Origin: Pseudomonadota bacterium
Lineage (GTDB): Bacteria > Pseudomonadota > Alphaproteobacteria > Reyranellales > Reyranellaceae
Assembly: GCA_018240685.1 (NCBI GenBank)
Contig: JAFEFG010000006.1
Location: 1 to 64,000, forward strand
Direction of reading: 5' to 3'
DNA length: 64,000 bases
Numbering within the stretch: the first letter of the stretch is position 1; each line of letters opens with the position of its first letter. A program made the position numbers and the translations under genes. The notes under the pieces are model-generated. The model had not been told where the DNA came from and searched no databases. It saw only the letters and a program-made list of their open reading frames with translations. Positions 13,034-20,272 of the stretch are shown here, one piece after another.

Positions 13034-13915
13034 ATGCCGTACGCGACCACGGACGATGGCGTGAAGCTGTACTACGAGGAGACCGGCGCCGGCGCGCCGA
13101 TCGTCTTCGTCCACGAGTTCGCCGCCGATCATCGCTCGTGGGAAATGCAGATGCGCCATTTCGGCCAGCGCTATCGCTGCATCACCTACGGCGCCCGCGG
13201 CTATCCGCCCTCCGACGTGCCGGAGAAGCCGGAGAGCTACTCGCAGAACCGCGCCACCGACGATATCCTCGCGGTGCTGGATCATCTCGGGATCGACAGG
13301 GCCCATGTCGTCGGCCTGTCGATGGGCGGATTCGCCAGCCTGCATTTCGGCTTCCGCCATCCGGCCCGGGCGCGGTCGCTGGTCGTGGCCGGCGTCGGCT
13401 ACGGCGCGGAGAAGGGGCAGCAGGAACGTTTCAAGGCCGAGGTCGAGGTGGTGGCGAAGTCGCTGCTGAGCGAGGGCATGGCGGCCTTCGCCGAGAAGTA
13501 TGCCTACGGCCCGACGCGCGTGCAGTTCGAGAACAAGGACCCGCGCGGCTTCACCGAGTTCAAGCAGGCGCTGGCGGAGCACTCGGCGCTGGGCTCGGCG
13601 AACACCCAGCTTGGCTGCCAGGGGCAACGCCCGTCGCTCTACGACCTCGTCGAGCAGATGCGTGGGCTGGCCGTGCCGACCTTGATCCTGACCGGCGACG
13701 AAGACTGGCCATGTCTTGCGCCGGCGCTGCTGATGAAGCGCGAGATCCCGAGCGCGGCGCTGTCGGTGATGCCGAACTGCGGCCACACCATCAACCTCGA
13801 GGACCCCGAACAGTTCAACCGCATCGTCGGCGAGTTCGTCGCCCAGGTCGAAGCCGGCCGCTGGCCCAGGCGCGACCCACGCGCGGTCAGCGCGTCGATC
13901 ACGGGGATGCGGTAG
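13034..13915 (+). CDS. Alpha/beta-hydrolase
   Basis: A 293-residue alpha/beta-fold hydrolase. The nucleophile is S96 in GLSMGG, the oxyanion region is VFVHEF, and the catalytic histidine is in NCGHTINLEDP, with an acid expected in LTGDEDWP. The length and the absence of a signal peptide fit cytosolic esterases or 3-oxoadipate-enol-lactonase-like enzymes. GAGAGGAAG precedes ATG 13034. It stands apart from the importer operon, separated by the inverted repeat and a second GC-rich intergenic stretch (12983-13011, CCTTCGCCCCGCTCAGGAC) of the kind found dispersed in alphaproteobacterial genomes. The substrate is unknown. Confidence 0.88.
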   Translation: MPYATTDDGVKLYYEETGAGAPIVFVHEFAADHRSWEMQMRHFGQRYRCITYGARGYPPSDVPEKPESYSQNRATDDILAVLDHLGIDRAHVVGLSMGGFASLHFGFRHPARARSLVVAGVGYGAEKGQQERFKAEVEVVAKSLLSEGMAAFAEKYAYGPTRVQFENKDPRGFTEFKQALAEHSALGSANTQLGCQGQRPSLYDLVEQMRGLAVPTLILTGDEDWPCLAPALLMKREIPSAALSVMPNCGHTINLEDPEQFNRIVGEFVAQVEAGRWPRRDPRAVSASITGMR

Positions 13916-13999: not shown

Positions 14000-14560
14000 G
14001 TGACAGGCGAGCCGATCGACGAAGCCGAGATGGCGGCACTGATGCGGGCTACGCAGCAGGGCGATCCGGCTGCCTATGCTCGGTTGCTGAAGGCGGTCGC
14101 CCCGATTGTCCGGCGGATGGCTGCGCGCCGGTGGACCGGCTCCGAAGAGGCCGACGACGTCGTCCAGGACGTCCTGCTGTCGCTGCACCAGGTCCGCCAC
14201 ACCTACGATCCGGATCGTCCCTTTATCCCCTGGCTGATGGCGATCGCGCGCAACCGGCTGGCGGATGTCCAGCGTCGCCAGGCGCGCCGGGCGAAGGGGG
14301 AAGTGGCCGTCGAAATTCTTCCTGAAACCTTTTCAGGCCAGGAAACGAAGGATGTGGTGGACCGCTTGGCGTATTCCGACGCTCTCGAGCAGGCCATGGC
14401 CGAACTTCCGGCCGGGCAGAGACGTGCCGTGGAATTGCTGCGGTTCAAGGAGATGTCGCTCAAGGAGGCGTCGGCCGCCAGCGGCATGTCGATTTCGGCG
14501 CTGAAGGTCTCGATGCATCGGGCGATGAAGACGTTGCGAACCATTCTGACGAAGCAGTGA
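14000..14560 (+). CDS. ECF-type RNA polymerase sigma factor
   Basis: A 186-residue group-4 sigma factor. Region 2 spans about residues 15-90 (EEADDVVQDVLLSLHQ and FIPWLMAIARNRLAD), and region 4 is seen as AVELLRFKEMSLKEASAASGMSISALKVSMHRA with its helix-turn-helix. The start is GTG 14000; ATG 14030 is an alternative. It directly precedes an NrsF/DUF1109 anti-sigma gene, the pairing of the ECF16-like group (Caulobacter SigF-NrsF), which responds to metal and oxidative stress and uses a GTAAC(C/T)-N16-CGAA-like promoter. Two such promoters lie 4 kb downstream at 18292-18405, making those operons likely targets. No copy was found in the gap just upstream of the sigma gene. Confidence 0.9.
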   Translation: MTGEPIDEAEMAALMRATQQGDPAAYARLLKAVAPIVRRMAARRWTGSEEADDVVQDVLLSLHQVRHTYDPDRPFIPWLMAIARNRLADVQRRQARRAKGEVAVEILPETFSGQETKDVVDRLAYSDALEQAMAELPAGQRRAVELLRFKEMSLKEASAASGMSISALKVSMHRAMKTLRTILTKQ

Positions 14561-14562
14561 CC

Positions 14563-15222
14563 ATGGAGACGGAAGAACTCATCGGCAGGCTTGCCGCAGG
14601 CGCCGGGCGTCCCGTCCGACGCCTTGCGCCGCCGTCAGCCCGCCTCCTCTTCTGGTTGGCGGTCTCGTTACCGTGGATCGCCGTGGTCGTGACCGTCATG
14701 GGGGTACGGCCCGACCTGACCGCCAGGTTCGAGGACCCGCGCTGGATCGTCGAGCAGGGGGCGGCTCTGGTGACTGCAGTGGCGGCGGCGCTGGCCGCGT
14801 TCTGCGCCGGCGTGCCCGGCCGTCCGCGCTGGGAACGCGTGGTTCCGATCGTCCCCGTCGTGGTCTGGATCGGCGCCGTCGGCTTCGGTTGCCTGCAGGA
14901 TTGGATCCGGCCCGGCCCCGGCGGCGTGATGTTCGAGTCGGATTGGGCGTGCCTGCCCGGGATCGTCTTCGTCGGCGCTGCGCCCGGCATCGCCATGGCG
15001 GTCATGCTTCACAAAGGGGCGCCGCTGGCGCCTTTCGTCTCCGTCGGTCTCGGAGGCCTCGCGGCCGCGGCGCTGGCCGACTTCGGGCTGCGCCTGTTCC
15101 ACGCACAGGACGCCGGTCTGATGGTCCTCGTCTGGCAGGTCGGTTCCGTCGCTCTGCTGACGGTCTTGAGTGCGGCGATCGGACGGCACCTGGTCCGCTG
15201 GCGCCATCTGCCGCTGCACTGA
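14563..15222 (+). CDS. nrsF: NrsF-family membrane anti-sigma factor (DUF1109)
   Basis: A 219-residue inner-membrane protein with six predicted hydrophobic segments and a short cytoplasmic N-terminus (METEELIGRLAAGAG). This matches the NrsF/DUF1109 architecture that sequesters a partner ECF sigma factor at the membrane. Cysteines lie at about residues 81, 110 (GFGCLQ) and 130 (SDWACLP); in the Caulobacter protein conserved cysteines sense the stress. ATG 14563 lies 2 bases past the sigma stop; GTG 14557, overlapping it, is an alternative. Co-transcription with the sigma gene is nearly certain. Confidence 0.82.
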   Translation: METEELIGRLAAGAGRPVRRLAPPSARLLFWLAVSLPWIAVVVTVMGVRPDLTARFEDPRWIVEQGAALVTAVAAALAAFCAGVPGRPRWERVVPIVPVVVWIGAVGFGCLQDWIRPGPGGVMFESDWACLPGIVFVGAAPGIAMAVMLHKGAPLAPFVSVGLGGLAAAALADFGLRLFHAQDAGLMVLVWQVGSVALLTVLSAAIGRHLVRWRHLPLH

Positions 15223-15233
15223 GCGGGCCGCAC

Positions 15234-15464
15234 GTGCCCCGGCTCACCACCCTCTGCCGCTACTGCGTCAGCGATGGGATTCCCCTGCGTTCGTCGATGG
15301 TGGCCCTGGTCGTCGGCACCATCCTCAACCTGATCAATCAGGGCGACGCACTTCTCGGCGAGGGGCACCTCAACTTCACGAAACTGCTGCTGACGTTCGC
15401 CGTGCCCTACTGCGTGGCGACGTATGGCGCGGTCTCCTACAGGCTGCGCGCGCCCCGCCGCTGA
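15234..15464 (+). CDS. nrtS: NrtS-like small membrane protein
   Basis: A 76-residue protein with two membrane segments: MVALVVGTILNLINQGD, then LLLTFAVPYCVATYGAV. The ILNLINQGD motif and size match the NrtS family, first described as a nitrate/nitrite transporter in marine Synechococcus. It starts at GTG 15234, 11 bases after the NrsF-like gene, and so is probably the third gene of the sigma operon. Whether it moves nitrate or plays a role in the stress response is unknown. It ends 10 bases before the convergent methyltransferase gene. Confidence 0.75.
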   Translation: MPRLTTLCRYCVSDGIPLRSSMVALVVGTILNLINQGDALLGEGHLNFTKLLLTFAVPYCVATYGAVSYRLRAPRR

Positions 15465-15474
15465 GCGGGCGGCA

Positions 15475-16317
15475 TCATCGGCCGGCGGCCGCCGACGACC
15501 GATCGGGTTTCCTGGCGGTCACGATCGCATAACCCAGTTCCTTCCGGCCCACCGCGGCCCGCGCCTCGCGGGCGAACGCTTTTGCCGAGGCGAAGTCGAA
15601 GCCCGGCAGGCAGAGCTTCTTCAGGCCGACCATGACTTCGGCGATGATCAGCCGTCCGCGGATCTGCTCGACGAGATCGCGCAAGGCATCGTCGTGTTCC
15701 TCGATCTGCGGCACTACGAGGCCCGCAGCCATGAGAATGTCCGCGTAGGCCGCCGCCGGCAGCGAGTCGGCGACGCAGGCGATCCACGAGAGCAGCCCCT
15801 CGAGCGAGGCCGGCAGAGGTCCAGTCCGGGTGAGGTCGCTGAGACCGGCGCATCCGCCTGGCGCGAGGACACGGGCGAATTCGCGCGCAGTCGCGGCCTT
15901 GTCGGGAAAGGTGCAGAATGCGCATTCGCAGAGGACCGCGTCGAACGAGGCGTCGTCGAACGGAAGCCTCTCCGCATCGGCGACGTGGAACCGGACCTGG
16001 CCGGCAAGGCCTGCCCGGTCGGCGAGCCGGCTGGCGGCGTCCACGTTCTGCCGGCTGTAATCGACGCCCACCACCTCGCAGCCGAAGCGCTCGGCCAGGT
16101 GTATAGCGCTCGTCCCCCGGCCCGCGGCGACGTCCAGGACCCGCGATGCCGGCCCCAGGTCCAGCAGCTGCGCCAGCCGTTCGGTCAGCGTCCGGCCTCC
16201 GGGATGGAAGCAGTCGCCCAGCAGCAGCTTCGCGAGGTCGCTCTCGTATGTGAGCGCGCAACACTGCTTCACGCGTGCAGTATCGATCTCCGCCGGGGCC
16301 GGCGCTTCGCCAGTCAT
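15475..16317 (-). CDS. Class I SAM-dependent methyltransferase (ArsM-like)
   Basis: A 280-residue methyltransferase with motif I VLDVAAGRGTSA (about residue 60), the acidic loop VVGVDYS, and motif IV around FDAVLCECAFC. A cysteine-rich entry (KQCCALTYESD, LGDCFHPGG) and the CECAFC segment recall arsenite-methyltransferase-like proteins that use cysteines for substrate binding, but the arrangement is not enough to claim arsenite. The start codon overlaps the radical SAM stop by 4 bases (ATGA at 16314-16317). It is the last gene of the VKOR-radical SAM operon that begins at the TGTAAC promoter of 18292-18320. The substrate may be the product of, or an input to, the radical SAM reaction; this is inference. 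Confidence 0.82.
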   Translation of the reverse strand: MTGEAPAPAEIDTARVKQCCALTYESDLAKLLLGDCFHPGGRTLTERLAQLLDLGPASRVLDVAAGRGTSAIHLAERFGCEVVGVDYSRQNVDAASRLADRAGLAGQVRFHVADAERLPFDDASFDAVLCECAFCTFPDKAATAREFARVLAPGGCAGLSDLTRTGPLPASLEGLLSWIACVADSLPAAAYADILMAAGLVVPQIEEHDDALRDLVEQIRGRLIIAEVMVGLKKLCLPGFDFASAKAFAREARAAVGRKELGYAIVTARKPDRSSAAAGR

Positions 16318-17837
16318 CGCTGCGTCCCGAAATCGAACACGACGGGCCGCGGCTCATACGGCCGTCCTTCGCGCCGCGCGCGGCGGCGCTCCGGCTCCAT
16401 GGCGTCCAGCTGCGCGCGCGCCTGTTCGCGATAGCCGACCGTGTTGTAGGCGCAGAAGGGAATCTGCCTGCCCCCCGGCAGCAGGAATTCCTTGCAGCAC
16501 TTCATGAGGTTCTTCTGGTTCATGGTCCAGGGGTCCATGAAGTCCTGCAGCATGATCATGATCATATTGTTCGCCAGTTCCCCCATGGTCGACGTGGGTG
16601 CCAGGCCGCAGGCCTCGCAGGAGAGCGCGAGATCCTGGACCGACTTCGGCGAGCCGGCGACCGAGGAGGACGACCACAGCCCTTCGAGGGCCCGCTTGAT
16701 CTCGAGGTCGAAATCGGGAACGACCCGGTTCGTCAGGTAGTCGAGGTAATCCTCGACATTCAGGATCCGGGGCAGGGGAGTCACGACTTCGCCTTCGACG
16801 AAGGCATAGGTCACCGCGTTGCAGGTTGGGAAGCAGCAGGGGACGGGAACGAAGTCGGAGGCGACGAACTTGCCGCTTGTCTGTTCCTCGATGAGGCGGA
16901 CGATGTCGGGGATCGTCATGCGGTTCATCGGATCGTGTTCGATGTGCCGTCCGGCATGGAAGGCTGGCTGGAACGTGATTCCGCGCACCGCCGGGTGGCG
17001 GATGGCGAAGTCGACGATCCGTCCGACCTCGTGCTCGTTGACGCCGCGCTCGATGGCCGGAACGAGGGTGACGCTGAGGCCGATGGCGGCCAGGCGATCG
17101 AGCGCGCGCAGCTTTTCTTCCAGGATGTCGGGTTCGCCGCGGATGATCCGGTAGGTTTCCGGATCGAACCCGTCGAACTGGAAGTAGAAGGCGGGCCGGA
17201 CCTCGTTCAGCTGCTCGAGGAAGCGGTCGTCCCTGGCGATGCGGCGCCCGTTGGTGTTCAGCATCACGAACCGGATGTTCCGGCTCTTCGCGGCGCGCAC
17301 GAAGTCGATGATCTGCGGATGGACGGTCGGTTCGCCGCCGGAGAACTGCACGACTTCCGGGGCACCCTCGCTCTTCACGAAATCGTCGAGCATCTGCTCG
17401 ACCTCCTCGAGAGTGAGATTGAAGCCGGGCCGGGCATCGGCGAAGCAGAGCGGGCAATCCATGTTGCAGGTGCTGTTCACTTCGATGATGCCGAGGCAAG
17501 CGTGCTGCTCGTGCTCGGGGCAAAGGCCGCAGTCGTGCGGACAGCCGCGGTCGACAGCCGTGCCGTGGGTGTGGGGGATCGTGCCGGGTTTGTTGAAGCG
17601 GGCAAGCGCCGTATAGGCCGTCGCATCGCCATAGACGAGCGCGATGAACGGCCCACAATCCGGACAGCGCTTGCTCATGTAGACCTTGTTGTCGCGCAAC
17701 AGGATCTTCGCATCGATGACCTTCCGGCATTTCGGACAGATGCTGCGGGTCAATTCGTGGAAGATGTAGTCCGCGTCGCGCCGACGAGAGTCGGTCGGGT
17801 CAGGAGGCGTGGTGGCCTTTGCCGGAAGGGCGGTCAT
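16314..17837 (-). CDS. Tes-like radical SAM protein
   Basis: A 507-residue cysteine-rich radical SAM enzyme. The 4Fe-4S/SAM motif is C124-x3-C128-x2-C131 (STCNMDCPLCFA), followed by FSGGEPT (165-171). Before it lie Cys pairs C34-x2-C37 and C58-x2-C61 and a cluster C99, C103, C106, C114 (GCPHDCGLCPEHEQHAC), likely ligands for additional metal centres. The segments ITFQPAFH, MTIPDIVRLIEEQT and FVPVPCC, together with the Cys pattern, resemble the tetraether-lipid synthase (Tes/MJ0619) group of archaea and its bacterial relatives, which join unactivated carbons in lipid chains. The gene sits between VKOR (33 bases upstream) and a methyltransferase (4-base overlap). The family resemblance is from memory of motifs; the substrate is not known. 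Confidence 0.83.
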   Translation of the reverse strand: MTALPAKATTPPDPTDSRRRDADYIFHELTRSICPKCRKVIDAKILLRDNKVYMSKRCPDCGPFIALVYGDATAYTALARFNKPGTIPHTHGTAVDRGCPHDCGLCPEHEQHACLGIIEVNSTCNMDCPLCFADARPGFNLTLEEVEQMLDDFVKSEGAPEVVQFSGGEPTVHPQIIDFVRAAKSRNIRFVMLNTNGRRIARDDRFLEQLNEVRPAFYFQFDGFDPETYRIIRGEPDILEEKLRALDRLAAIGLSVTLVPAIERGVNEHEVGRIVDFAIRHPAVRGITFQPAFHAGRHIEHDPMNRMTIPDIVRLIEEQTSGKFVASDFVPVPCCFPTCNAVTYAFVEGEVVTPLPRILNVEDYLDYLTNRVVPDFDLEIKRALEGLWSSSSVAGSPKSVQDLALSCEACGLAPTSTMGELANNMIMIMLQDFMDPWTMNQKNLMKCCKEFLLPGGRQIPFCAYNTVGYREQARAQLDAMEPERRRARREGRPYEPRPVVFDFGTQR

Positions 17838-17870
17838 GACGGAATTCCCTGTCGTTTTCGGTGCGTGGAG

Positions 17871-18284
17871 TCAGGACCTCAGGCTCCAGACACTCCAGAG
17901 GAGGAAAGGCGAGGCCAGTGTCGTGGCGAGGCAGTAGACGCAGAAGCTGCCGAGCTTGATCATGTCGAACACGCCCAGGGCGTTCGCGACCGCGGCCAGG
18001 GCCGACAGGACCAGGAGCGGTATCCAGATCCACAGCGACTCGACCGGCCCGAGAAGGAGGAGGCCGATCAGGAAGTAGAGCGCCGTGCCGATGTAGCCGT
18101 CGGGGATGCCGAACGGGCGGGCGAAGGAAGCGTCGGCCACGGCTTGGCAGCTGCCCTCCAGGATCGGGCACCACAGGCGATTGACGGCCCGGCTCTGGTA
18201 CAGGCCGACATAGAGCATGGCGGCCGCACTTATGACCGCGAGCAGGAGGGCCACCAGGCGAGGATTGACGAACGGCATTGTCAT
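17871..18284 (-). CDS. VKOR-family thiol oxidoreductase (membrane)
   Basis: A 137-residue inner-membrane protein with about four hydrophobic helices. It has loop cysteines C39 and C46 (LWCPILEGSCQAV) and the redox motif C115-V-Y-C118, the pattern of bacterial vitamin K epoxide reductase homologues, which oxidise periplasmic thioredoxin-like proteins and pass electrons to quinone. The ATG (18284) is only 7 bases from the -10 element of the proposed ECF promoter, so the transcript may be leaderless. It is the first gene of the operon with the radical SAM enzyme and methyltransferase and is divergent from a thioredoxin/CcdA operon. The redox function fits both neighbours. Confidence 0.85.
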   Translation of the reverse strand: MTMPFVNPRLVALLLAVISAAAMLYVGLYQSRAVNRLWCPILEGSCQAVADASFARPFGIPDGYIGTALYFLIGLLLLGPVESLWIWIPLLVLSALAAVANALGVFDMIKLGSFCVYCLATTLASPFLLWSVWSLRS

Positions 18285-18291
18285 TCACCGA

Positions 18292-18320
18292 TATTCGCGA
18301 CGCGGCCGCAGAAAGTTACA
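18292..18320 (-). promoter_or_regulatory. ECF sigma promoter of the VKOR operon
   Basis: Read on the minus strand: TGTAAC (18320-18315), 17 bases, then CGAATA (18297-18292). It matches its divergent twin at 18377-18405 in both boxes and in spacing. The -10 box ends 7 bases before the VKOR ATG, so transcription should begin at or next to the start codon. Confidence 0.7.
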
Positions 18321-18376: not shown

Positions 18377-18405
18377 TGTAACTTTTCCCCTCCGACGACC
18401 GAAAT
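18377..18405 (+). promoter_or_regulatory. ECF sigma promoter of the thioredoxin operon
   Basis: TGTAAC (18377-18382), 17 bases, then CGAAAT (18400-18405). This agrees with the GTAAC(C/T)-N16-CGAA form known for the SigF/NrsF group of ECF sigma factors. It would give a leader of about 45 bases before the thioredoxin ATG at 18456. The sigma and NrsF genes lie 4 kb away at 14000-15222. Confidence 0.7.
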
Positions 18406-18455: not shown

Positions 18456-18851
18456 ATGGTCGAAAGACGCTTTGTTCTGAAGGCGATGATGGTGGGCATC
18501 GGCGCATTGGCCGCTCCGCCGGTCTTCGCCTTCGAGTCCGGTGCATTCGATGCCAAGGCCTTCGCCGCCGCGCAGGCGGCCGGGAAGCCCATCCTGATCG
18601 AGGTGACGGCTCCCTGGTGTCCAACCTGCAAGGCCCAGAAGCCCATCCTGTCCGAGCTTGCGCGCAAGCCGAAATTCAAGGACCTGGTTGCCTTTCAGAT
18701 CGACTTCGACAGCCAGAAGGACCTGTTGCGCAAATTCGGCGTGTCCATGCAGAGCACGCTGATCTCCTTCAAGGGCTCCAAGGAGGTCGATCGCTCGACA
18801 GGCAACACCGATGCCGCGTCGATCGAGGCCCAGCTCGACAAGTCGCTCTAG
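18456..18851 (+). CDS. Exported thioredoxin-like protein
   Basis: A 131-residue thioredoxin-fold protein with a Tat-like signal (ERRFVLKAMMVG, cleavage near VFAFE), so it acts in the periplasm. The active site is W54-C55-P-T-C58. The position of the usual cis-proline is Ser (about residue 100, MQSTLISFKG instead of PT), which in thioredoxin-fold proteins changes substrate release and metal binding. A TCCG-rich leader and GGGAG site precede ATG 18456. It is the first gene of an operon with CcdA and a secreted unknown protein, driven by the ECF promoter at 18377. CcdA probably keeps its CPTC reduced, while VKOR, divergently encoded, could oxidise it. Confidence 0.87.
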   Translation: MVERRFVLKAMMVGIGALAAPPVFAFESGAFDAKAFAAAQAAGKPILIEVTAPWCPTCKAQKPILSELARKPKFKDLVAFQIDFDSQKDLLRKFGVSMQSTLISFKGSKEVDRSTGNTDAASIEAQLDKSL

Positions 18852-18860
18852 GGGCGGATC

Positions 18861-19580
18861 GTGCTCGCCACCGCCGGCTTGGCCTTTCTTGCCGGCATCC
18901 TGTCGACGTTGTCTCCGTGCGTGATGCCGCTGATCCCGTTGGTGTTGGGGGCCGCCGTGTCGGAACATCGGCTGGGGCCGGTAGCCTTGGCCGCGGGACT
19001 CGCCTTGTCGTTCACCGCCATCGGGTTGTTCGTGGCGACGATCGGATTTGCGATCGGCCTCGACGCCGGTGTCTTCCGGCAGGTTGCTGCGATCGTGATC
19101 GTTGGCGTGGGGCTTCTGTTGCTGTTGCCGGGCGCGCAGGCCCGCTTTGCGGTTGCCTCCGGCCCGGTCGCCGGCTGGGCGGAGCGCCGCTTCGGCGGCG
19201 GCCGGACGGCCGGTTTGCGCGGCCAGTTCCTGGTCGGACTCCTGCTTGGCGTGGTGTGGGCGCCGTGTGCCGGCCCCACGCTTGGGGCCGCGTCGGTCCT
19301 GGCCGCGAAGGGCGAGCATCTGGGCCAGGTGGCGGTCGTCATGCTCGTCTTCGGAATCGCCGCATCGCTGCCTCTCCTGCTGCTCGGACTCCTGTCGCGC
19401 GAGACGATGATGCGGCTTCGCGGTCGGCTCGTCGCCACCGGGATGGGGGCGAAGATTCTCCTGGGCGCGATTCTGGTCGCGCTCGGCCTGTCCATCCTGA
19501 CCGGCATCGACAAGCGCGTGGAAGCGTTCGCCGTCGACGTTTCGCCGCCATGGCTGACTTCCATCACGACGCGTTTCTAG
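18861..19580 (+). CDS. CcdA/DsbD-type thiol electron transporter
   Basis: A 239-residue inner-membrane protein with six hydrophobic segments and the two CcdA cysteines, C20 (STLSPCVMPLIP) and C136 (VWAPCAGPTLG). These carry electrons from cytoplasmic thioredoxin to a periplasmic thioredoxin-like protein. The start is GTG 18861, nine bases after the preceding stop. The adjacent exported thioredoxin is the obvious electron acceptor. There are no cytochrome c maturation genes nearby, so a role in this redox module is favoured over haem ligation. Confidence 0.87.
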   Translation: MLATAGLAFLAGILSTLSPCVMPLIPLVLGAAVSEHRLGPVALAAGLALSFTAIGLFVATIGFAIGLDAGVFRQVAAIVIVGVGLLLLLPGAQARFAVASGPVAGWAERRFGGGRTAGLRGQFLVGLLLGVVWAPCAGPTLGAASVLAAKGEHLGQVAVVMLVFGIAASLPLLLLGLLSRETMMRLRGRLVATGMGAKILLGAILVALGLSILTGIDKRVEAFAVDVSPPWLTSITTRF

Positions 19581-19615: not shown

Positions 19616-20272
19616 ATGAGACTCTTCAGATCCTCGCGGACCGTTCTGGCGGCTGGCGGCCTCCTGCTGTGGTCGGCAGCTTCCGCGCTTGCGGCGTCGC
19701 CATTGACGCTGGAGTTCGTCACTCACGCGGCGTTCTTCTCGAACGAGACGAAGCAGCCCAAGACGCTCGATCCGCAGGTGTTCGTCAAGGACCCGGCGGC
19801 GCCGGAAGCCACCGGCCCGCAGGGCATCAAGCACGTTGCGGGCGTGCGGCCGCCCTTCATCGATCAGGATGGCGCCAATTCGCCCGTCTTCACGGCCGAG
19901 GGCAAGCCGCTCGGCTTCGACCTGAAGACGTGGCTCGGCCCCAAGGGGACCGTGACGATCTCGGAACAAGGCGGAAAGGCGATGCTGCAGGCGTCCTTCA
20001 CCGGCCTGAAGCCCGGCGGCAGCTACAGTCTCTTCGAAAACCACTTCGACCAGAAGCCGGTCGGATTCACGCCGATGGACGGTACAGGGCAGACGAACTC
20101 CTTCGTCGCCCAGTCCGACGGCACCGCGAAAGTTTCGATGGTGCTGCCCCACGTTCCCACCCACGACAACGCCGTCCTGCTCGTCTATCACAGCGACGGC
20201 CAGACACACGGGCTGGAGCGTGGTCGCATCGGGGTCGATGCGCACCACCAGCTCATCGCGCGGCCTCAATAG
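19616..20272 (+). CDS. Secreted protein of unknown function
   Basis: A 218-residue protein with a Sec signal (MRLFRSSRT, hydrophobic core, cleavage near ALAA). The mature part appears all-beta, with motifs SYSLFENHFDQKPVGFTPMD, a threonine/serine-rich middle and a histidine-containing end (LLVYHSDGQTHG, DAHHQLIARP). It contains no cysteine, so it is not itself a thiol enzyme. It follows CcdA by 35 bases with AAAAGGTGAG before ATG 19616 and belongs to the sigma-controlled operon. I do not recognise the family. The repeated histidines could bind a metal, but that is speculation. Confidence 0.8.
   Translation: MRLFRSSRTVLAAGGLLLWSAASALAASPLTLEFVTHAAFFSNETKQPKTLDPQVFVKDPAAPEATGPQGIKHVAGVRPPFIDQDGANSPVFTAEGKPLGFDLKTWLGPKGTVTISEQGGKAMLQASFTGLKPGGSYSLFENHFDQKPVGFTPMDGTGQTNSFVAQSDGTAKVSMVLPHVPTHDNAVLLVYHSDGQTHGLERGRIGVDAHHQLIARPQ

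Follow-up and report, generated by a model that had tools for sequence, protein, structure and literature searches.

Bacterial homologues of the tetraether-lipid synthase Tes, a radical S-adenosylmethionine (rSAM) protein, are already in print (PMC8941075, PMC9433317, PMC11868695). Zeng et al. reported 456 of them (PMC8941075), and a survey of the Black Sea counts them by phylum, with Chloroflexota among the largest groups and activity given as unconfirmed (PMC11868695); in surveys, these homologues are counted as possible makers of membrane-spanning lipids. The name of the TrsS family is likewise established (PMC13188914). Another relevant described system is the heavy-metal regulon of Caulobacter, where NrsF reportedly retains sigma-F until the cells meet chromate or cadmium stress, with GTAACC-N16-CGAA given as the sigma-F site (PMC3511200). 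Here, we analyze a stretch of 64,000 nucleotides (positions 1 to 64,000 of contig JAFEFG010000006.1 from an alphaproteobacterium of the family Reyranellaceae, assembly GCA_018240685.1; hereafter, the window), in which positions 15475-18284 encode a VKOR-family thiol oxidase, an rSAM protein, and a methyltransferase, next to sigma factor and NrsF genes.

The kind of rSAM protein found here is known; the variant, the set of partners, and the regulation are new as far as literature searches show, and these searches found no publication on a VKOR-rSAM-methyltransferase cassette. Judging from profile scores and phylogeny, the rSAM is a third branch of the Tes/TrsS superfamily, and not Tes. Our preferred reading, which we advance tentatively and rate below an even chance, is that a stress-inducible, C-H-activating rSAM and a thiolate-armed methyltransferase act on a soft-atom (S, As, Se, or Hg) or lipid substrate as parts of a metal- or thiol-stress regulon.

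Family assignment and metal sites of the rSAM

The three genes form a minus-strand operon in the order VKOR, rSAM, methyltransferase. In the list of open reading frames (ORFs), the rSAM and methyltransferase genes overlap by 4 nucleotides (nt), and 33 nt separate VKOR from the rSAM gene, so that the tight coupling of the rSAM to a cysteine-rich methyltransferase and a thiol oxidase, proposed in a first-pass annotation of the window, is borne out.

15475-16317, minus strand: methyltransferase, DVU_1556/ArsM-like, with CC19-20, C132, and C181 (NF045667, 138.2 bits, cut-off 155; NF008823, 80.8 bits, cut-off 263)
16314-17837, minus strand: 507-residue rSAM of the Tes/TrsS superfamily, assigned to a third branch from Pfam, NCBIfam, PDB match, tree, alignment, and AF2 model
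17871-18284, minus strand: VKOR-family thiol oxidase with an FCVYC motif (PF07884, E=4.6e-14, 53.1 bits, above the gathering score of 27.5)

The rSAM contains the Radical_SAM (PF04055, E=4e-23) and Zn_ribbon_HMPTM (PF23545, E=1e-16) domains, and its closest PDB sequence match is the Tes structure 7tol (E=3.8e-80). All residues listed in the first-pass annotation (C34, C37, C58, C61, C99, C103, C106, C114, and the CX3CX2C motif at 124/128/131) and the motifs FSGGEPT, TIPDIVRLIEEQT and FVPVP are present, and their chance origin is excluded by these matches together with that to NF045702. The AF2 model (pLDDT 79, pTM 0.83) resembles Tes 7tol/7tom over its whole length (TM 0.77-0.79 over 489-495 columns). 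This similarity favors a serious rival to our reading, namely, that the rSAM couples or functionalizes a phospholipid tail like Tes, that the methyltransferase adds a methyl branch, and that sigma-F only makes the system stress-inducible, an explanation that we consider possible but doubtful. To our knowledge, Tes is the sole characterized member of the superfamily, which also counts for the lipid enzyme.

Profile scores and phylogeny set the rSAM apart from Tes. Against the Tes profile NF045702, the rSAM scored 328.7 bits, below the curated cut-off of 450, and against the TrsS profile NF045646, 324 bits, below the curated cut-off of 490; the NF045702 cut-off was passed by none of the 12 genomes of the window clade and by three archaeal controls. 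In a tree of 53 chosen rows, with archaeal Tes represented by a single row and with long branches in places, a branch with support of 100/99 parts Tes, its acidobacterial kin, TrsS, and a haloarchaeal row from the side of the window clade, which also holds a clade partnered with Lgt-like proteins, two alphaproteobacterial rows, and a mycobacterial plasmid row. The window clade itself has support of 91/90 and its 23-row core 100/99. Plain membership in Tes was rejected given the score below cut-off, the position across the 100/99 branch, and the absence of Met439, and plain membership in TrsS given the score below cut-off and the separate branch. Checked against both families, the rSAM falls within the superfamily but on a branch of its own: the first-pass label of a Tes-like rSAM stands insofar as it denotes a bacterial member of the Tes/MJ0619 superfamily and fails for Tes itself, and the suggestion that the pathway is not the archaeal one agrees with score, tree, and Met439.

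A scan of genome contigs yielded 71 loci, with rSAMs that are 47-80% identical save one fragment; 69 were long enough for residue counts (L092 and L097 were dropped). Nine cysteines (C34, C37, C58, C99, C103, C106, C124, C128, and C131) do not vary among the 68-69 relatives with sequence at these positions. The exception is C61: 61 of 70 rows have His here, where the rubredoxin site of Tes has its His ligand. By alignment, the rSAM keeps the Tes ligand positions C34/C37/C58/C61, C99/C103/C106/H109, C124/C128/C131, and C339/C447/C462, that is, the Cys/His set for the rubredoxin site, the N-terminal cluster [4Fe-4S]N, the SAM cluster, and the C-terminal cluster, for which C339, C447, and C462 are, from their conservation, the probable ligands. 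In Tes, Met439 is described as the labile ligand of the C-terminal cluster (PMC9433317). The corresponding column of the window clade contains Gln in 51, Lys in 16, and His in two rows, with one gap (70 rows); Met occupies this position in nine of ten TrsS proteins and in both second copies from Acidobacteriota described below. The loss of Met439 and the distance from Tes in the tree both speak against the lipid enzyme.

The relatives outside the window clade show diverse associations. In the sister clade, the rSAM gene adjoins an Lgt-like (prolipoprotein diacylglyceryl transferase-like) gene (L005, L007-L010, L012, L013, L015, L017, L020, L023, L024, L130, L131, and L144), and in its alphaproteobacterial rows, C339, C447, and C462 are missing, with a different set of cysteines instead. 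A selenoprotein reading of the genus relatives, most of whose matches contain one TGA, was rejected: the four proteins that were read end at the C-terminus with no internal selenocysteine, so these codons were taken as ordinary stops. A second Tes-like protein is encoded beside the window-type rSAM in three acidobacterial genomes (L145 and L146; also L102 and L147); in the tree, the second copies of L145 and L146 fall with MJ0619; they have Met439 and the C-terminal cysteines but not the ligands of the N-terminal cluster, and they appear to be better candidates for bacterial tetraether synthesis than the window-type rSAM. The TrsS operons (L133-L142), inspected by eye, include molybdenum-hydroxylase, GltD-like, zinc-ribbon, C_GCAxxG, PaaK-like ligase, and XdhC- and MobA-like genes, and most also carry a DVU_1556-like methyltransferase. 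A haloarchaeal plasmid (L132) encodes an rSAM-methyltransferase pair of the same superfamily; haloarchaea make archaeol only, according to the introduction of Zeng et al. (PMC8941075).

The methyltransferase and its cysteines

What the loci conserve as a unit is the pair of rSAM and methyltransferase. The methyltransferase, in which Pfam recognizes class I methyltransferase domains, is encoded directly downstream of the rSAM at 68 of the 71 loci, 67 of them scorable and one (L038) cut by a contig end; of the remaining three, L033 has none nearby, L046 is where the contig ends at once, and L097 is the fragment. Among the 67 scorable rows, C132 and C181 are present in all, C19 in 64, and C20 in 66. 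Cys174 and Cys224 of CmArsM are described as integral to arsenite binding, and at least three of ArsM Cys44, Cys72, Cys174, and Cys224 would be expected (PMC5552862). In an alignment that included ArsM sequences encoded in three of the cassette-bearing genomes (L154-L156), C132 aligns with the Cys of the ArsM motif NC(V/I)NL and C181 with that of GCIAGA/ECLGGA. By these motifs and our own reading, C132 and C181 probably occupy the positions of CmArsM Cys174 and Cys224; the N-terminal CC lies near Cys44, in a loose alignment only. A control with six other methyltransferase-like ORFs found Cys at neither column, but this is a weak comparison, as most are gapped there and that of L038 is a cut family member.

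ArsM ranks second among the NCBIfam matches, after DVU_1556, in all six methyltransferases compared (from the clade and the haloarchaeal pair), always below the cut-off, and fifth for the TrsS-type methyltransferase of L133; the ArsM structure 5evj is a sequence match to the window protein (E=2.1e-9). Given the sub-cut-off score, we do not claim plain membership in ArsM; ArsM structures do not appear among the 50 structural matches listed from one comparison or among those listed from a second. The AF2 model of the methyltransferase has a pLDDT of 88; folding used alignments of 32 rSAM and 30 methyltransferase rows, picked for spread and free of in-frame stops. Thiolate cysteines of this type are a better match for a soft atom than for the carbon of a lipid, which tells against the lipid enzyme.

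HgcAB and the ArsM/ArsS and ArsL/ArsM pairs are known routes to metal(loid)-bearing lipids or organometals. A long shot, in our estimate, is an aerobic organometal(loid) pathway in which the ArsM-like methyltransferase would methylate As, Hg, or another soft element held by thiolates and the rSAM would couple it to an alkyl chain. If true, metal(loid)-bearing lipids or organometals could arise without any of those routes, and such a pathway, also in SAR202, would come into question as a source of arsenolipids or organomercury under oxic conditions. An arsQML cluster has also been described (PMC8552651).

The methyltransferase bears on another explanation as well. An rSAM is combined with a DVU_1556-type methyltransferase both here and in TrsS operons, the window protein reaches 138.2 bits against NF045667, and the haloarchaeal pair links the TrsS and window types, as if the TrsS/DVU_1556 reaction of anaerobes, in a small-molecule or cofactor pathway, had been recruited to new settings. 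We regard this as unlikely: the rSAM stands at 324 bits against the TrsS cut-off of 490 and on a different branch, and at the loci that were read, genes for a molybdenum hydroxylase, XdhC, MobA, or a ligase were not recognized beside the window-type cassette.

Distribution and insertion into a thiol-redox module

The 71 loci come from alphaproteobacteria (Afipia, Roseiarcaceae, and Bauldia), Acidobacteriota, Ktedonobacteria, SAR202/Dehalococcoidia, Streptomyces, Micromonospora, Kribbella, and others. In a set of 101 genomes made up of the window genome and relatives, 19 relatives encode an rSAM, only 39-46% identical, and the genus rows in the tree are of the Lgt-partnered type; a search for the methyltransferase at E 1e-30 found no other genome among 61 relatives (window genome included). 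A sample of 385 genomes from the class contains only five others with an rSAM match at E 1e-30, at most 41% identical. Given this patchiness, the cassette is scattered and looks horizontally moved. An origin from a virus or phage was rejected, as no relative came up in two scans of viral contigs.

The genes that flank the cassette are the following.

14000-14560, plus strand: extracytoplasmic function (ECF) sigma factor, SigF-type (Sigma70_r2/r4_2; NrsF gene next; orthologues 71-77% identical in the same module of two genus relatives)
14557-15222, plus strand: NrsF (PF06532, E=2.4e-24)
15264-15464, plus strand: small NrtS-family membrane protein (NF038050, 38.1 bits, cut-off 25)
18294-18319, minus strand: sigma-F-like promoter site GTAACT-N16-CGAA for VKOR-rSAM-methyltransferase (pattern search)
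18378-18403, plus strand: sigma-F-like promoter site GTAACT-N16-CGAA for Trx-CcdA (pattern search)
18456-18851, plus strand: exported thioredoxin (Trx)-like protein (PF00085, E=2.8e-15; signal-like N-terminal stretch by eye)
18861-19580, plus strand: CcdA/DsbD-type membrane electron carrier (PF13386, E=7.4e-10; PF02683, E=2.8e-8)
19616-20272, plus strand: exported protein of 218 residues, 75-80% identical in the relatives' module, kept with Trx-CcdA, with zero matches in Pfam and NCBIfam searches

In G011, a relative, 447 nt separate the genes bordering window positions 13915 and 20343, as against 6.4 kb in the window. Both G011, at another place, and G024 contain a module of sigma and NrsF followed by Trx, CcdA, and the exported protein, with proteins 63-80% identical and a sigma-F site ahead of trx; the same class of site lies upstream of trx in L200 and L201. 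None of VKOR, rSAM, and methyltransferase occurs in the module stretches of G011 and G024 that were read. Because these two relatives hold the module without the three genes, the interval 15475-18284 of the first-pass annotation corresponds almost exactly to an insert into a pre-existing sigma-F thiol-redox module. Contamination of the contig was rejected, as the flanks are syntenic in genus relatives at 77-89% nucleotide identity.

Sigma-F sites

The GTAACT-N16-CGAA site of the window is one base off the Caulobacter site. Within the 64 kb of the window, there are exactly two matches to GTAAC-N17-CGAA (0.07 expected; none of 100 shuffles reached two), and VKOR and trx, 171 nt apart, have both sites between them, back to back and facing outward. 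Thus, a sigma-F site stands ahead of the operon, as the sequence of a regulon member should show. As the minus-strand site and the annotated start of VKOR are just 10 nt apart, the transcript would be leaderless or the true start lies further in.

Across the 70 loci L027-L096, GTAAC-N16/N17-CGAA occurs 23 times, compared with 5.05 expected. Six loci with sigma and/or NrsF genes (L027, L028, L029, L034, L039, and L043) account for 17 sites, compared with 0.5 expected, and L045 has two. These sites precede the VKOR/rSAM operon (L027-L029), DUF2282 bufferin genes, DUF427, Trx, and sigma genes, and in L043, the gene for a small exported protein just upstream of the rSAM. Induction of the cassette by metal or thiol stress would be expected by analogy with Caulobacter.

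Neighboring genes and the choice between readings

Neighbors at other loci include further thiol-redox genes. MauE (PF07291, one representative tested) is found at 16 of 70 loci, in actinobacteria, and a Trx lipoprotein and CcdA at 10 of 70 each; VKOR homologues adjoin the cassette in L027, L028, L029, and L039, and CcdA and a disulfide oxidoreductase lie beside it on a Mycolicibacterium plasmid. A region of the Mycolicibacterium plasmid (L129, 8429-12303) also encodes Rv1678-, Rv1680-, and Rv1681-family proteins (a membrane protein, an SBP-like protein, and a second radical SAM protein), along with a deiodinase-like gene and nrtS. On the metal side, a GGDCT-type flavoreductase lies within 4 kb at seven of 70 loci, 28-51 nt upstream in L032-L034. 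A MerA-type reductase is encoded within 8 kb at four of 70 loci (L041, L043, L069, and L080), with about 0.05 expected from our own density estimate, and merB lies about 9.5 kb from the cassette in the genome of L080; in searches of 49 genomes, which together account for 50 of the 71 loci, 14 had merA and 17 merB above the cut-off.

Bufferin genes (DUF692, DUF2063, and DUF2282) adjoin the cassette in L027-L029 behind the same type of promoter, and it could be argued that the rSAM and methyltransferase modify a cysteine-rich exported peptide, such as a bufferin. Of all the explanations considered, we give this the smallest chance: bufferins have a maturase of their own, a peptide gene conserved across loci was not found, no bufferin gene was seen beside the window cassette, and Pfam searches revealed no SPASM or RiPP-recognition domain.

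Taken together, the regulation, the neighbors (bufferin, mer, Trx/CcdA, and MerA-like genes), and the ArsM-type cysteines point to metal or thiol stress, and the regulon and neighbors also count against the lipid enzyme. Several observations weigh against the soft-atom reading. The methyltransferase lacks an equivalent of ArsM Cys72, so that of the four ArsM cysteines only 174 and 224 are matched, and its ArsM score is far under the cut-off. The closest folds among the matches listed are AtmM, MitM, RebM, phosphoethanolamine, and cyclopropane methyltransferases, all within three Z units, so the fold does not name the substrate, and the cyclopropane synthases among them favor the lipid enzyme. 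L033 has no methyltransferase. At the remaining loci (for example, SAR202), sigma-F sites are not enriched, so sigma-F control is not universal across the loci, and MerA-type genes are near the cassette at only four of the 70. Furthermore, several neighbors are lipid genes: PlsY directly follows the methyltransferase at 14 SAR202/Dehalococcoidia loci, a PlsY-like ORF follows the Dadabacterial pair L088, CDP-alcohol phosphatidyltransferases are near the cassette at nine actinobacterial and two Ktedonobacterial loci, and the partner in the sister clade is Lgt-like. The SAR202/Dehalococcoidia genomes behind L047-L061 and L093 encode 3-6 PlsY homologues each (12 of 12 searched), so the PlsY of the cassette is a paralogue. 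The lipid enzyme is therefore a serious rival, nearly as good as the soft-atom reading on neighbors and better on ancestry; both could be true if the soft atom is carried on a lipid.

Under our preferred soft-atom reading, a mobile VKOR-rSAM-methyltransferase cassette would have joined a sigma-F/NrsF thiol-redox module (sigma, NrsF, NrtS, Trx, CcdA, and the exported protein). Metal or thiol stress would free sigma-F from NrsF, as in Caulobacter, and sigma-F would then fire two divergent promoters from the sites observed in the window. The rSAM, with the Tes set of a rubredoxin site, two auxiliary [4Fe-4S] clusters, and the SAM cluster (ligands by alignment), would take a hydrogen atom from an unactivated carbon, and its C-terminal cluster would serve to form a bond to carbon; as the labile Met439 ligand is replaced by Gln, Lys, or His, it must work differently from Tes. 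The conserved ArsM-like cysteines of the methyltransferase would hold S, As, Se, or Hg, and the held atom would be methylated before or after the rSAM step, while VKOR (MauE in Streptomyces) and the exported Trx/CcdA would run thiol redox on the outer face. The product would be a methylated, carbon-bound soft-atom compound, possibly lipid-borne, that protects against stress.

If the branch, with its members in SAR202, Streptomyces, and Ktedonobacteria, acts on metal- or thiol-stress substrates, the survey counts of bacterial Tes homologues need splitting, and the patterns of cluster ligands and partner genes offer a simple means to do so. The cassette is present in named isolates of Streptomyces, Kribbella, Ktedonobacter, and Dictyobacter and in an Afipia strain, which makes the rSAM-methyltransferase pair open to experiment.

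Comparison with known systems

Compared with Tes/GDGT-MAS (MJ0619, NF045702, 7tol), the window rSAM shares the whole-length fold and the cysteines of the rubredoxin site and of the N-terminal, SAM, and C-terminal clusters, but has the additional C114, C334, C335, and C407 and Gln, Lys, or His in place of Met439 in its clade, whose members are bacterial and have a methyltransferase partner at nearly all loci. Like TrsS (NF045646), it adjoins a methyltransferase homologous to the DVU_1556 family; it differs in that its gene has no in-frame TGA, while TrsS keeps Met at 439 in nine of ten proteins and, at the loci read here, lies in molybdenum-hydroxylase operons. In the same genus, a TrsS-like clade with an Lgt-like partner (L003 and others) occupies an adjacent branch of the tree, with rSAMs 39-46% identical, but lacks C339, C447, and C462 and has the Lgt-like protein instead of a methyltransferase. 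Like ArsM (NF008823), the window methyltransferase has Cys where CmArsM has Cys174 and Cys224, and it also has the N-terminal CC, whereas it lacks the Cys72 equivalent and its nearest folds are natural-product and phosphoethanolamine methyltransferases. Finally, the sigma factor, NrsF, and the promoter class, together with the bufferin-type genes of the Afipia-type loci, match the Caulobacter sigma-F/NrsF heavy-metal regulon, although the regulon as listed in PMC3511200 includes no rSAM, methyltransferase, or VKOR.

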